A stretch of DNA of 64,000 nt, from NCBI RefSeq assembly GCF_039545455.1, contig NZ_CP154467.1, positions 1,978,501 to 2,042,500 of the forward strand. Reading direction: 5' to 3'. This stretch comes from Brucella sp. BE17 (GTDB taxonomy: Bacteria; Pseudomonadota; Alphaproteobacteria; Rhizobiales; Rhizobiaceae). Positions 32,817 through 50,014 of this stretch are shown one piece after another. The notes under the pieces were generated by a model. The model worked only from the letters and a program-made list of their open reading frames with translations. It searched no databases and was not told where the DNA came from. A program made the position numbers and the translations under genes. Positions within the stretch are counted from its first letter, which is position 1; every line of letters begins with the position of its first letter.

Positions 32817-33437
32817 CTATCGCACTGCGCCGACCAGAAGGTTTTCGGGTGCTTCGATGGAAACCCAGCGACCGCTATGGTTCGAAGCCTGGCGCTTCAG
32901 ATAGCTATAATCCGTATCATCCCAGCGCATGACTTCATCGGTCAGATTGTCCAGAATGTAATCGCCGCGATCTGTGCGAACCGTCAGAACGGCATGGCCT
33001 TCGCCGTCGGGTTTGCGAACAACGGTAATCAGAAGATTGCTAATCGGAATACCGGCCTCGTTCAATTCACGCTGCTTGAGAAGGACATAGTCCTCGCAAT
33101 CGCCAACGGTGGTCGGGTAAGCCCAGTATTCCTCAACGCCGTAGATTTCCATATCGGTCATTGGTTTGATGCGCTCGTTGATCGAATGATTGACGGCGAT
33201 GATGTTTTGCCAATTGGCTGACGTCAATTGTAGCGGGCGCGTGTCGCGGCTGGTGACGTTGCATTCGGCAGCTTCGCGCTTGCAGAACTCATAATGGCCT
33301 ATCGGCTGTGATGTCGTTTTGCCGGTCTGCATGAAATTGCTTGATGCTGCTTCGGCACTAAAGCCAGTCAGCAACACCGAAGCCGCCAAAGCGGCTGCTG
33401 CCATGATCTTTGTGGTTGAGCGAACAACGCAAAACAT
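32817..33437 (-). CDS. Exported transglutaminase-like cysteine peptidase (BTLCP/DUF920)
   Basis: A 206-residue protein with a signal peptide (about 1-30, TKIMAAAALAASVLLTGFSA then EA). The catalytic triad of the bacterial transglutaminase-like family is visible: Cys in TVGDCEDYVLLK, His in GEGHAVLTVRT and Asp in YILDNLTDEV. In other bacteria LapG of this superfamily cleaves a surface adhesin, but this protein belongs to the broader Rhizobiales DUF920 group without known substrate. The upstream region shared with the divergent gene has two full CtrA boxes. An in-frame TTG at 33443 is an alternative start. Confidence 0.88.
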   Translation of the reverse strand: MFCVVRSTTKIMAAAALAASVLLTGFSAEAASSNFMQTGKTTSQPIGHYEFCKREAAECNVTSRDTRPLQLTSANWQNIIAVNHSINERIKPMTDMEIYGVEEYWAYPTTVGDCEDYVLLKQRELNEAGIPISNLLITVVRKPDGEGHAVLTVRTDRGDYILDNLTDEVMRWDDTDYSYLKRQASNHSGRWVSIEAPENLLVGAVR

Positions 33438-33476
33438 ACTCAACGCCCTTGCCGAAGATTAACATTCGTTCATTTA

Positions 33477-33559: not shown

Positions 33560-33760
33560 GCGCGCGGAATGAATTAATGCACCAAATAGTTGATTCTGTT
33601 GGATGGTAACCAGCGCCAAACTCGCTCTGAACCACTCATAATTTTGCCATGGTCGGCGCGCTTTTCTTTTGTCCTGAACGGCTGGTTTCTGGCTTGTTCG
33701 GTCGGGCCTGAAATGCCGGCATTGGGCACGGTGTGAGGCCCTTTGACAAGGGGCCACGGG

Positions 33761-34867
33761 ATGACAGGCGCAACCACGCGCAAGGCCACCGCAGATGACA
33801 TTGATGCGCTCTTACGCATTGAGGAGTGTTGTTTCGAGACGGACCGCATTTCCCGCCGTTCGTTTCGCGTTCTGATCGCACGCCCGACTGCCGAAACAAT
33901 AGTCGCCGAGGTGGGCGGTGCGGTTGTTGGTTATGCGATGATCCTGTTTCGCCAAGGGACCGGACTGGCGCGGTTTTATTCACTTGCTGTTCTGCCAGAT
34001 AGCGGGCTGAAAGGCATCGGGTCACTTCTTCTGATGGCGGCGGAAACCGTAGCCTTCGAACATGATCGTATGTTGTTGCGGCTGGAAGTGCGCGAAGACA
34101 ATGCGCGTGCCATCGCACTTTATACCCGCCATGGCTACCGACCTATCGGCCGCTATCTCGATTATTATGCCGATCATTCCAGCGCTCTTCGCTTTGAAAA
34201 GACGGTGCGCGGCGATTTTTCGCCGGTTCCGTCCTTTCCCTATTACGAGCAGACGACGGATTTTACCTGCGGTGCGGCCTGCCTGATGATGGTTCTGGCT
34301 CGTGACATGCCGCAGACACGCCTTGATCCTGTACTGGAAATTCGGCTCTGGCGCGATGCAACGACCATCTACATGATGTCGGGGCCGGGCGGTTGCGAGC
34401 CGTTCGGACTGGCTGTTGCCGGATATGAGCGCGGCCTTGCGGCATCAATCATCGTGTCGACACAGGACACGCTTTTTCTGCAATCGGTACGCTCAGTCGC
34501 AAAACGAAAGGTCATGCAACTGGCACAAACCGATTTTCGCCAGCGAGCGGAAGCCTATGGCATTCCGGTCGAATATCGCCACTTTACTTTATTCGATATT
34601 CTCTGCGCCCTGCGGCGGGGTGCGTCTGTAATCGTTCTTATCAGCGGTTACCATATGTTCGGCAAGAAAGTGCCGCACTGGGTGCTCGCGCATGGCGAGG
34701 ACGGACGCCATATTTTCATTCATGATCCGTGGGTGGCGGACGAGCGTGGTGAGACCATCGCCGATGCGGCCAATTTGCCGGTACCCTTCCATATTTTTAA
34801 TCGTATTGCACGCTTTGGTGCCGATGGGCTGCGAGCGACTATTATTTTTGAAAAAGGAAAAGATTGA
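33761..34867 (+). CDS. GNAT acetyltransferase fused to a C39-like cysteine peptidase
   Basis: A 368-residue two-domain protein. Residues about 5-150 are a GNAT domain with FYSLAVLPDSGLKGIGSLLL (acetyl-CoA loop) and LEVREDNARAIALYTRHGY. Residues about 158-365 are a C39-like peptidase domain (DUF3335 type) with C170 in TTDFTCGAACLMMV, H306 in VPHWVLAHG and D322 in FIHDPW, a plausible Cys-His-Asp triad. No signal peptide, so it is cytoplasmic. Its stop TGA overlaps the ATG of the ATP-grasp gene (TGATG). ATG at 33761 is used; 33743 is an alternative. Substrate unknown. Confidence 0.85.
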   Translation: MTGATTRKATADDIDALLRIEECCFETDRISRRSFRVLIARPTAETIVAEVGGAVVGYAMILFRQGTGLARFYSLAVLPDSGLKGIGSLLLMAAETVAFEHDRMLLRLEVREDNARAIALYTRHGYRPIGRYLDYYADHSSALRFEKTVRGDFSPVPSFPYYEQTTDFTCGAACLMMVLARDMPQTRLDPVLEIRLWRDATTIYMMSGPGGCEPFGLAVAGYERGLAASIIVSTQDTLFLQSVRSVAKRKVMQLAQTDFRQRAEAYGIPVEYRHFTLFDILCALRRGASVIVLISGYHMFGKKVPHWVLAHGEDGRHIFIHDPWVADERGETIADAANLPVPFHIFNRIARFGADGLRATIIFEKGKD

Positions 34868-36327
34868 TGACCATATGCGCTATTCTTGTAGGGCGTCTTT
34901 CCGATATCGACAACGGTGCGACGCCGCACAAGGTCATGACCCATCGCGATTATCTTGCCCATCCAGCTTTGTTCAACGATCAGCTACGGCCACGCATCAT
35001 CAATCTGTCGCGTTGTTATCGCTACCAAAGCCGCAGCTATTACGCTTCGCTGCTGGCCGAAGCACGCGGTCACCGCGTCATCCCCTCCGTTGAAACGATG
35101 ATCGATCTCTCAGAACGAAAGCTTTACGAAAATGCCATTCCAGAACTCGAAGATGCCTTGAACAAAACATTTGCAAAGTATCCGCATAAACAGTGCGACA
35201 CTGTCCATGTGCATTTCGGTTTTGCAGAAGACCCGGATTTCGAACGCTTCGGTCGGCTCCTGTTCGACTGGTTCCGGGCACCGTCGCTGGAAGTGACTGT
35301 GAAGCCCGGCGAATGGGTTTGTATCCAGAAGATCGGCTTTGCCAACATCGCCAAATTTCACGATGAGCGCAAAGTGCAGTTCGAAGAGGCGCTGGCGCGC
35401 TATACGAAACGCGAATGGCGCGCCGCAAGGCCAAAAGTTCCAGCGCGCTATTCTTTCGCCACGCTTTGCGATCCCAAAGAGGCCATGCCGCCTTCATCGG
35501 TGTCGACGCTTAAACACTGGGCAAAAATTGCCGGGCGTCTTGGCGTCGATGTGGAACCCATCGGTCGCAAGGAGCTGTCGCGCCTTGCCAATTACGATGC
35601 GCTGTTCATTCGCGAGACAACGTCGATTTCCAATCATACCTATCGTTTTGCACGGCGGGCGCAGCAGGAAAACATGCCGGTTATCGACGACCCGATCTCG
35701 ATGATCCGCTGCACCAACAAGGTCTATCTGCATGAACGCATGCAGGCCAATGACGTGGCCGTGCCGGAAACGCTTATGATTGCAGGCGAAGAGGATCTGG
35801 AACGGGTCGCCGATGTTCTCGGTTTTCCGCTGGTTATCAAGATACCGGATTCGTCTTTTTCGCGTGGCGTCAAGAAGGCGAAGAATCTTACCGAACTCAA
35901 GCAGCTGGCCGGGCTTTGGCTTCAGGATAGCGACCTGTTGCTGGCACAAAAATATATGCCGACCGCTTTTGACTGGCGTGTCGGCGTTCTCGACGGAAAA
36001 CCGCTTTTTGCCTGCCAGTATATGATGGCAAAGAACCACTGGCAGATCATCCAGCACGATACGGGCGGCGAGCCACAGGAAGGCGGTTTTCGCTCCTTTG
36101 CGCTCGGTGATGTACCGATGAAGGTTCTGGAAACTAGCCTGCGGGCTGCCCGATGCATTGGTGACGGATTATATGGTGTCGATCTGAAGGAGGGGGAGGA
36201 TGGGGTTGTAGTGATCGAGGTGAATGACAATCCTAATCTCGAACATGGCGTGGAAGATGCCGCCGAAAAAGACGAGGTCTGGATCAATCTCACGCGCTGG
36301 TTCACAGATAGGCTCGACCGGCGTTAG
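34867..36327 (+). CDS. RimK-like ATP-grasp ligase with RLAN N-terminal domain
   Basis: A 486-residue protein. Residues about 1-200 match the RimK-like ATP-grasp N-terminal (RLAN) type, with LSRCYRYQSRSYYASLLAEA near 40-59. The ATP-grasp part (about 225-480) has IRETTSISNHTYRFARRAQ, a substrate/ATP segment FPLVIKIPDSSFSRGVKKA and the metal-binding VVIEVNDNPNLEHG near the C terminus. RimK relatives ligate amino acids to proteins or small molecules; the substrate here is unknown. It is translationally coupled to the GNAT-C39 gene. Its stop TAG lies at the left edge of a 105-bp repeat copy. Confidence 0.88.
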   Translation: MTICAILVGRLSDIDNGATPHKVMTHRDYLAHPALFNDQLRPRIINLSRCYRYQSRSYYASLLAEARGHRVIPSVETMIDLSERKLYENAIPELEDALNKTFAKYPHKQCDTVHVHFGFAEDPDFERFGRLLFDWFRAPSLEVTVKPGEWVCIQKIGFANIAKFHDERKVQFEEALARYTKREWRAARPKVPARYSFATLCDPKEAMPPSSVSTLKHWAKIAGRLGVDVEPIGRKELSRLANYDALFIRETTSISNHTYRFARRAQQENMPVIDDPISMIRCTNKVYLHERMQANDVAVPETLMIAGEEDLERVADVLGFPLVIKIPDSSFSRGVKKAKNLTELKQLAGLWLQDSDLLLAQKYMPTAFDWRVGVLDGKPLFACQYMMAKNHWQIIQHDTGGEPQEGGFRSFALGDVPMKVLETSLRAARCIGDGLYGVDLKEGEDGVVVIEVNDNPNLEHGVEDAAEKDEVWINLTRWFTDRLDRR

Positions 36328-49501: not shown

Positions 49502-50014
49502 ATGATGGGCTTGTTGTTTGGGCGCTTTGCGCACAGAGCGGTTTCCGTGGAGCCGCTCGCTGTCAAGGACAGCCAGGCAATCCAGCGCCTTCATGCGGTC
49601 GCCTTTCATCATGGCTGGAGTTCGGATGATTTCCGCTCGCTGATTGTGCAGGATACGGTTTTCGGCTTCGTGGCGCGCCCGCACGGCAAGCCCGATGCGG
49701 TTTGTGGGTTCGTACTTGCGCGCCTTGTGGCGGGTGAGGCGGAAATCCTGACCATCGCCGTTGCGCGTGAGATGCAGCGACACGGTGTCGGCCGCGCATT
49801 GATGGATGCAGTATTACGTCATCTCTATCAGGAGCGTACTGAGACGCTGTTTCTGGAAGTGGATGCCGCCAATGTGGCGGCACAGGCGCTTTATAGGCGC
49901 CTGGGATTTCACAAGGTGGGAGATCGTCCGGCCTACTATGAAACTGCCGATGGGCGCTCATCAGCACTCATTCTGCGCCGTGATCTGGTACGCAATGCAG
50001 AGACGCCGCAATGA
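49502..50014 (+). CDS. rimI: Ribosomal protein S18 N-acetyltransferase RimI-like
   Basis: A 170-residue GNAT protein. The acetyl-CoA loop REMQRHGVGRALMDAVLRHL (about 83-102) has the Q/R-x-x-G-x-G/A signature. LEVDAANVAAQALYRRLGF follows, as in RimI, with YYETADGRSSALILRRDL at the end. RimI acetylates the N-terminal alanine of S18. Position next to tsaB supports the assignment. The last codons overlap the next gene by 4 bases (ATGA). Confidence 0.9.
   Translation: MMGLLFGRFAHRAVSVEPLAVKDSQAIQRLHAVAFHHGWSSDDFRSLIVQDTVFGFVARPHGKPDAVCGFVLARLVAGEAEILTIAVAREMQRHGVGRALMDAVLRHLYQERTETLFLEVDAANVAAQALYRRLGFHKVGDRPAYYETADGRSSALILRRDLVRNAETPQ

Follow-up and report, generated by a model that had tools for sequence, protein, structure and literature searches.

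What do two overlapping genes of Brucella sp. BE17 make, one encoding an acetyltransferase fused to a candidate peptidase and the other an ATP-grasp ligase? The genes lie in a stretch of 64,000 nucleotides (contig NZ_CP154467.1, positions 1,978,501 to 2,042,500; hereafter the window) of a genome of 3.89 Mb in two contigs. Gene A (33761..34867; 368 amino acids from the ATG, with an in-frame TTG at 33743 as a possible start) joins a GNAT acetyltransferase to a DUF3335/C39-like cysteine peptidase domain, and gene B (34867..36327; 486 amino acids from its ATG) joins an RLAN domain to a RimK/LysX-like ATP-grasp ligase; all features of the pair are on the + strand. Both frames are intact, with about 300 bp of intergenic space upstream of the pair and 134 bp downstream. 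The TGA of gene A (34865-34867) ends at the first base of the gene B ATG (34867-34869), so that the TGATG overlap (34865..34869) reported in a preliminary description of the locus is real. Our tentative answer is a two-gene module making a small peptide that is N-acetylated and extended at its carboxyl end, with the C39-like domain as an optional hydrolase. The observation that carries it is that the constant pair consists of the GNAT and the ligase, not of the C39-like domain and the ligase.

This coupling was followed first in a sample of 299 genomes, all from one phylum. RLAN occurs in 56 of them (59 places) and DUF3335 in 47 (50 places); the two are found together in 46 genomes, RLAN only in 10 and DUF3335 only in G008. 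DUF3335 adjoins RLAN at 44 of the 59 places, being upstream on the same strand in 27, divergent in 13, downstream on the same strand in three and downstream on the opposite strand in one. The frames of these 44 matches have at least 361 codons and are fusion-sized, except in G201, where it is truncated at the end of a contig; the presence of a GNAT on them was judged by length, and not for every frame individually. A standalone GNAT adjoins RLAN at 14 of the other 15 places, G193 being without one. The expected partner, either GNAT-C39 or GNAT, therefore adjoins the ligase at 58 of the 59 places (G201 counted from its C39 part alone), and this adjacency stays while gene order changes. Two genomes, G006 and G247, have both kinds of GNAT. 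A further draw of 21 genomes from the same phylum repeated places of the larger sample, except for the centre's own, and was left uncounted.

A second set comprises 80 named loci, the best of at least 583 confirmed relatives of gene B, and as best matches they lean to the Alphaproteobacteria; the nearest named relative among the matches listed is from Ochrobactrum teleogrylli (85% identity). RLAN loci on two contigs labelled as Acidobacteria (L126, L136) cluster inside Hyphomonas and have neighbours in common with it, so these were counted as probably mislabelled assemblies. In all 80 named loci a GNAT adjoins the RLAN ligase, although a few of the GNATs are cut by a contig end (for example, in L094). 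In 78 of them the GNAT gene precedes the ligase gene on its own strand; the two overlap in 48, are 0-30 bp apart in 21 and lie further apart in nine, with start codons chosen automatically. Only two other GNAT-like matches occur in the flanks of these loci. The coupling of GNAT and ligase is thus real, and the two very probably work in one pathway.

The C39-like domain, on the other hand, is a dispensable add-on, without which many lineages do. It stands beside the ligase in 50 of the 80 named loci and is missing there in 30; whole-genome searches of 23 of these 30 genomes, in assemblies of unstated completeness, returned no DUF3335 match over the cut-off and one weak partial match of 21.7 bits. 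In a tree of 124 ligases, the domain is absent in 43 of the 122 labelled rows; the tree requires a minimum of 15 changes between presence and absence, and starred branches force at least 12 of these. Placing the C39-less ligases in one clade was rejected (p-AU 7e-5, 58 rows), and GNAT-only and GNAT-C39 variants both occur within a single genus, Nitratireductor, the former in N. soli (L070) and the latter in N. alexandrii (L096). Other carriers of the pair with GNAT-C39 are Mesorhizobium ciceri WSM1271 and Azospirillum brasilense. Since the domain has been repeatedly lost or gained, it would act beside synthesis and not within it. These changes may reflect either loss of C39 from a GNAT gene that stayed or replacement of that entire gene. 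A partner swap, in which another GNAT lineage replaced GNAT-C39 beside the same ligase, may have taken place, as suggested by a first GNAT tree; in a test of 58 hand-picked rows of the 124, however, the rhizobial GNATs as one clade were not rejected (p-AU 0.60). The preliminary description had read ligase, peptidase and acetyltransferase together as the pattern of synthesis and trimming of a peptide-like tag; peptide or peptide-like chemistry is still likeliest from the folds, but the peptidase is not a constant member of the set. Furthermore, the GNAT-only and GNAT-C39 variants form a natural experiment that separates the making of the product from its cutting.

Are these proteins equipped for catalysis? 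In gene A, the Pfam domain Acetyltransf_1 (33806..34138; 59.8 bits against a cut-off of 20.7) stands ahead of DUF3335, 'Peptidase_C39 like' (PF11814; 34235..34846; 260 bits against 25). In gene B, RLAN (PF14401; 34945..35391; 135.5 bits against 25) is followed by RimK (38.1 bits against 21). Counted from the TTG start, Q170 (34250..34252), C176 (34268..34270) and H312 (34676..34678) of gene A are identical in all 81 sequences of the peptidase set (80 with a GNAT on the same frame and one cut by a contig end; a Sinorhizobium meliloti paralogue was excluded), and the acid position, D328 (34724..34726), holds D in 68 of them and E in the other 13. Counted from the ATG, the latter three are the C170, H306 and D322 of the triad named in the preliminary description; C176 is the candidate nucleophile and Q170 a candidate oxyanion-hole glutamine. 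Five DUF3335 paralogues outside the GNAT/ligase context also keep Q, C, H and the acid, which is D. DUF3335 is placed among the papain-like cysteine proteinases in PMC10318531, and the C39-like domain of gene A is, as judged from its sequence, a candidate cysteine peptidase with a Cys-His-Asp triad.

Similarly, the ligase residues K285, K325, D369, R371, H391, W392, Q393, D439, E451, N453 and N455 are invariant in 124 of 124 sequences. D439 (36181..36183) and, within E451-V452-N453 (36217..36225), E451 and N453 align with the D, E and N of the RimK sequence, which we take to be metal-binding, and K285 (35719..35721) presumably marks the ATP site by the same alignment; K325 is also counted with the ATP- and metal-site residues. 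The metal residues of an amidoligase-type ATP-grasp enzyme, as earlier described for gene B, are therefore conserved. Structure models of the whole gene A and gene B proteins were used for fold searches. The GNAT part of gene A is RimI/Ard1-like, being nearest to the Ard1 and RimI N-terminal acetyltransferases, and the C39 part was barely covered. Gene B matches whole RimK, LysX and ArgX enzymes over model residues 194-485, the pre-ATP-grasp and ATP-grasp region (35449..36324); these matches were filled by the ligase part as opposed to the RLAN part (residues 1-190). Two findings had been named beforehand as fatal to the preliminary description, separation of the genes in other genomes and loss of the catalytic residues in homologues; the pair is kept together and the residues are conserved, and the description thus withstood both.

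From these parts we infer each enzyme's reaction and the order of the steps as follows. The ATP-grasp protein would use ATP to activate a carboxylate and then join it to an amine as an amide, as in RimK, LysX and ArgX, with the RLAN domain probably aiding the ligase in selecting its partner. The RimI/Ard1-type GNAT would acetylate the free alpha-amine on the ligase's own substrate molecule, and the two together would yield a peptide that is acetylated at its N-terminus and lengthened at its carboxyl end. The fused C39-like domain could cleave an amide bond in the product or in a precursor, for trimming or recycling. As RimI-type and RimK-type enzymes are hardly ever separated in evolution here, one common molecule would be the simplest case. 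DUF3335 elsewhere accompanies transporters and deacetylases, and for this reason we favour a small soluble peptide over a protein tag. A free small peptide with an N-acetyl group as the product is put forward with slightly more reserve than the explanation as a whole. If the proposal holds, a conserved orphan pathway of many soil, plant-associated and aquatic bacteria would lead to a peptide metabolite of a new N-acetylated kind or to a new protein modification. A still wider version is doubtful, namely a widespread, undescribed two-ended peptide-capping pathway in which one peptide is acetylated at the front by a RimI-type enzyme and extended at the back by a RimK-type enzyme. In this version a class of N-acetylated peptides would be present in about one fifth of the phylum genomes sampled, C39 would be a hydrolase plugged in or lost repeatedly, and some lineages would have DUF2817 and DUF155 as additional plug-ins.

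Several observations weigh against a small peptide as the product. The nearest solved relatives (RimI, Ard1, RimK and LysX) have proteins or protein carriers as their substrates and not free small peptides; a shared fold proves no function, and the modelled folds alone would fit a protein target equally well. The small-molecule neighbours belong to DUF3335 paralogues or to one genome, and not to the window's locus. Exceptions to the pairing also exist: G193, with no GNAT beside RLAN, has a GNAT-C39 on another contig, and no adjacent GNAT was found for the RLAN ligase on a Pseudomonas aeruginosa plasmid (L162:5899-7488). An association of RLAN with NAGGN synthetase is unclear, as RLAN occurs in 8 of 28 NAGGN genomes where about 5 are expected. 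Moreover, DUF155 lies near the ligase in 11 genomes of family group f28 and one of f30, which would fit a translation-linked role.

These same points lead to the alternative that survives best, a protein-modifying pair, which we nevertheless consider rather unlikely. Here the ligase would add amino acids to a target protein at its C-terminus, in the manner of RimK on ribosomal S6, the GNAT would acetylate the N-terminus of the target or of a partner protein, and C39 would remove the tag. The closest folds are those of enzymes acting on proteins, and DUF155/RMND1-family genes are found not only near the ligase in the genomes just mentioned but also near GNAT-C39 in G006. RMND1, the eukaryotic relative of DUF155, is tied to mitochondrial translation and is listed in the literature as a mitochondrial disease gene. 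However, the surroundings of the pair hold no conserved gene that could encode the target, the window genome already has its own RimI over the family cut-off (49571-49969), and the clusters in which DUF3335 paralogues lie contain transporters and deacetylases.

A role in resistance or detoxification is improbable. Here GNAT and C39 would inactivate a foreign peptide-like compound and the ligase would attach an amino acid to it; GNAT and amidoligase enzymes are known in such uses in general, and the scarcity of conserved neighbours would suit such a role. Against this stand the wide presence in 56 of 299 genomes, yet few plasmid records (11 of 72,556 with at least 80% of the ligase), and the failure of both window proteins to match anything in the defence library PADLOC (E 0.01). 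More improbable still is a ribosomal peptide of the graspetide or microviridin type, cross-linked by the ATP-grasp enzyme, N-acetylated by the GNAT and cut from its precursor by C39. Microviridin clusters do combine ATP-grasp ligases with an optional GNAT acetylating the N-terminus and, often in classes II-III, a C39 domain in the transporter (PMC13039773, PMC7823629). The present C39 is instead a DUF3335 domain fused to a GNAT, there is a single ligase and not two, and among the clusters of small frames (18-110 amino acids) near the pair in the 80 loci the 14 largest are confined to rhizobial relatives, although short or unusual precursors could escape such a search. Co-location without a shared function, for which nothing speaks beyond the lack of biochemical proof, is hardly credible given adjacency at 58 of 59 and 80 of 80 places despite changing gene order.

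What else accompanies the pair? An exported BTLCP cysteine peptidase (Peptidase_C93, LapG-like; 32817-33443, minus strand) lies divergent from it in the window. A functional link with this neighbour had been thought possible and was rejected, as among the 80 named loci the gene is kept beside the pair only in the closest kin (L062-L064), with a 35% partial stray in L105. No third gene conserved in all lineages was found; the families found in several non-rhizobial loci are generic (for example, ABC ATPases) or come from close kin (for example, Hyphomonas).

Partly kept neighbours are DUF2817 and DUF155, both of which the window genome is without. DUF2817 was matched in 64 genomes at E 0.001, and dropping matches below 250 bits left 50 full-length places in 40 genomes; 15 of these 50 are no more than 6 kb from RLAN or C39 (13 in family group f28 and two in f29). 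The corresponding figure for DUF155 is 13 of 31 places (11 in f28, one in f29 and one in f30), and in the six f28 genomes with DUF155 on the ligase's strand it is downstream of the ligase. RLAN is present in 25 of the 40 DUF2817 genomes (Fisher 2e-11) and in 19 of the 31 DUF155 genomes (Fisher 2e-8), values that are uncorrected for kinship and lean on family f28. In locus L140, DUF2817 stands between GNAT-C39 and the ligase, and in L174, L187, L188, L160 and L153, from three family groups, the RLAN or GNAT-C39 cassette also includes DUF155 and/or DUF2817. In G006, GNAT-C39 is downstream of genes for NAGGN synthetase and the NAGGN M42 peptidase, with one frame between it and the latter, and precedes DUF2817 and DUF155.

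DUF3335 paralogues occur in surroundings of other kinds. In a genome of the window's family (G197, L142:4017-15397), two DUF3335 proteins without a recognisable GNAT match are clustered with a DoeB-like deacetylase and an ABC transporter of the peptide type; the deacetylase is below its family cut-off and the permeases and ATPases were read from translations. This cluster looks like one that takes up an N-acylated compound and breaks it down. On S. meliloti pSINME02 (L163), a C39-family DUF3335 paralogue follows ABC transporter genes and faces genes for an aminotransferase, AsnB, a formyltransferase, a CDP-alcohol phosphatidyltransferase and a member of the phosphocholine cytidylyltransferase family; the cluster may be one for a lipid or peptide natural product. 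Another paralogue is near an amidohydrolase (L143), and in G008 a bare DUF3335 (L144:8120-8821) stands between sucB-like (2-oxoglutarate dehydrogenase E2) and lpd-like (dihydrolipoamide dehydrogenase) genes, named from their translations.

How, finally, does the pair compare with known systems? RLAN is reportedly from Iyer et al. 2009. The literature found, with most subscription papers outside its coverage, holds no functional study of RLAN, DUF3335 or the pair; the constant GNAT with a variable C39 and the DUF155 and DUF2817 neighbours are unstated there, and Iyer et al. 2009 may state some of this. PMC10318531 describes DUF3335 members as often fused to GNAT domains, citing Iyer et al. 2009, and general descriptions of ATP-grasp or GNAT peptide-ligase gene neighbourhoods appear in two further papers (PMC4431377, PMC2922099). 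Microviridin maturation is like the pair in its ATP-grasp enzyme, GNAT N-acetylation and, in some classes, C39, and the pair differs by its one RLAN-type ligase in place of two and by having no precursor peptide found near it. NAGGN synthetase itself (TIGR03103) was tried and rejected, as the family cut-off is 569 bits, gene A reaches 24.4 and gene B is missing from the matches; a separate full synthetase lies outside the window (G000:C2:797255-798886, 906 bits). The NAGGN system (TIGR03103, TIGR03106) nevertheless resembles the pair in its kinds of parts, namely a GNAT, an ATP-grasp ligase and a peptidase. For the LysX system, no LysW carrier over the cut-off was found in the window genome (best 14.8 bits against 53.2).

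The GNAT of gene A shares its fold and a YYxD motif with RimI, archaeal Ard1 and NatA, and its score for rimI (TIGR01575) is 69.8 bits, below the cut-off of 86.4; the genome's own RimI, which follows the pair some 13 kb further downstream, reaches 90.1 bits. Likewise, gene B does not reach the cut-off of the RimK alpha-L-glutamate ligase family (TIGR00768, rimK_fam; 76.5 bits against 143.4), and the invariant HWQ motif of its ligase family stands where RimK has an FRSN segment. With RimK, LysX and ArgX it shares the whole-enzyme fold and the metal and ATP residues, and it differs from them by the RLAN domain added in front.
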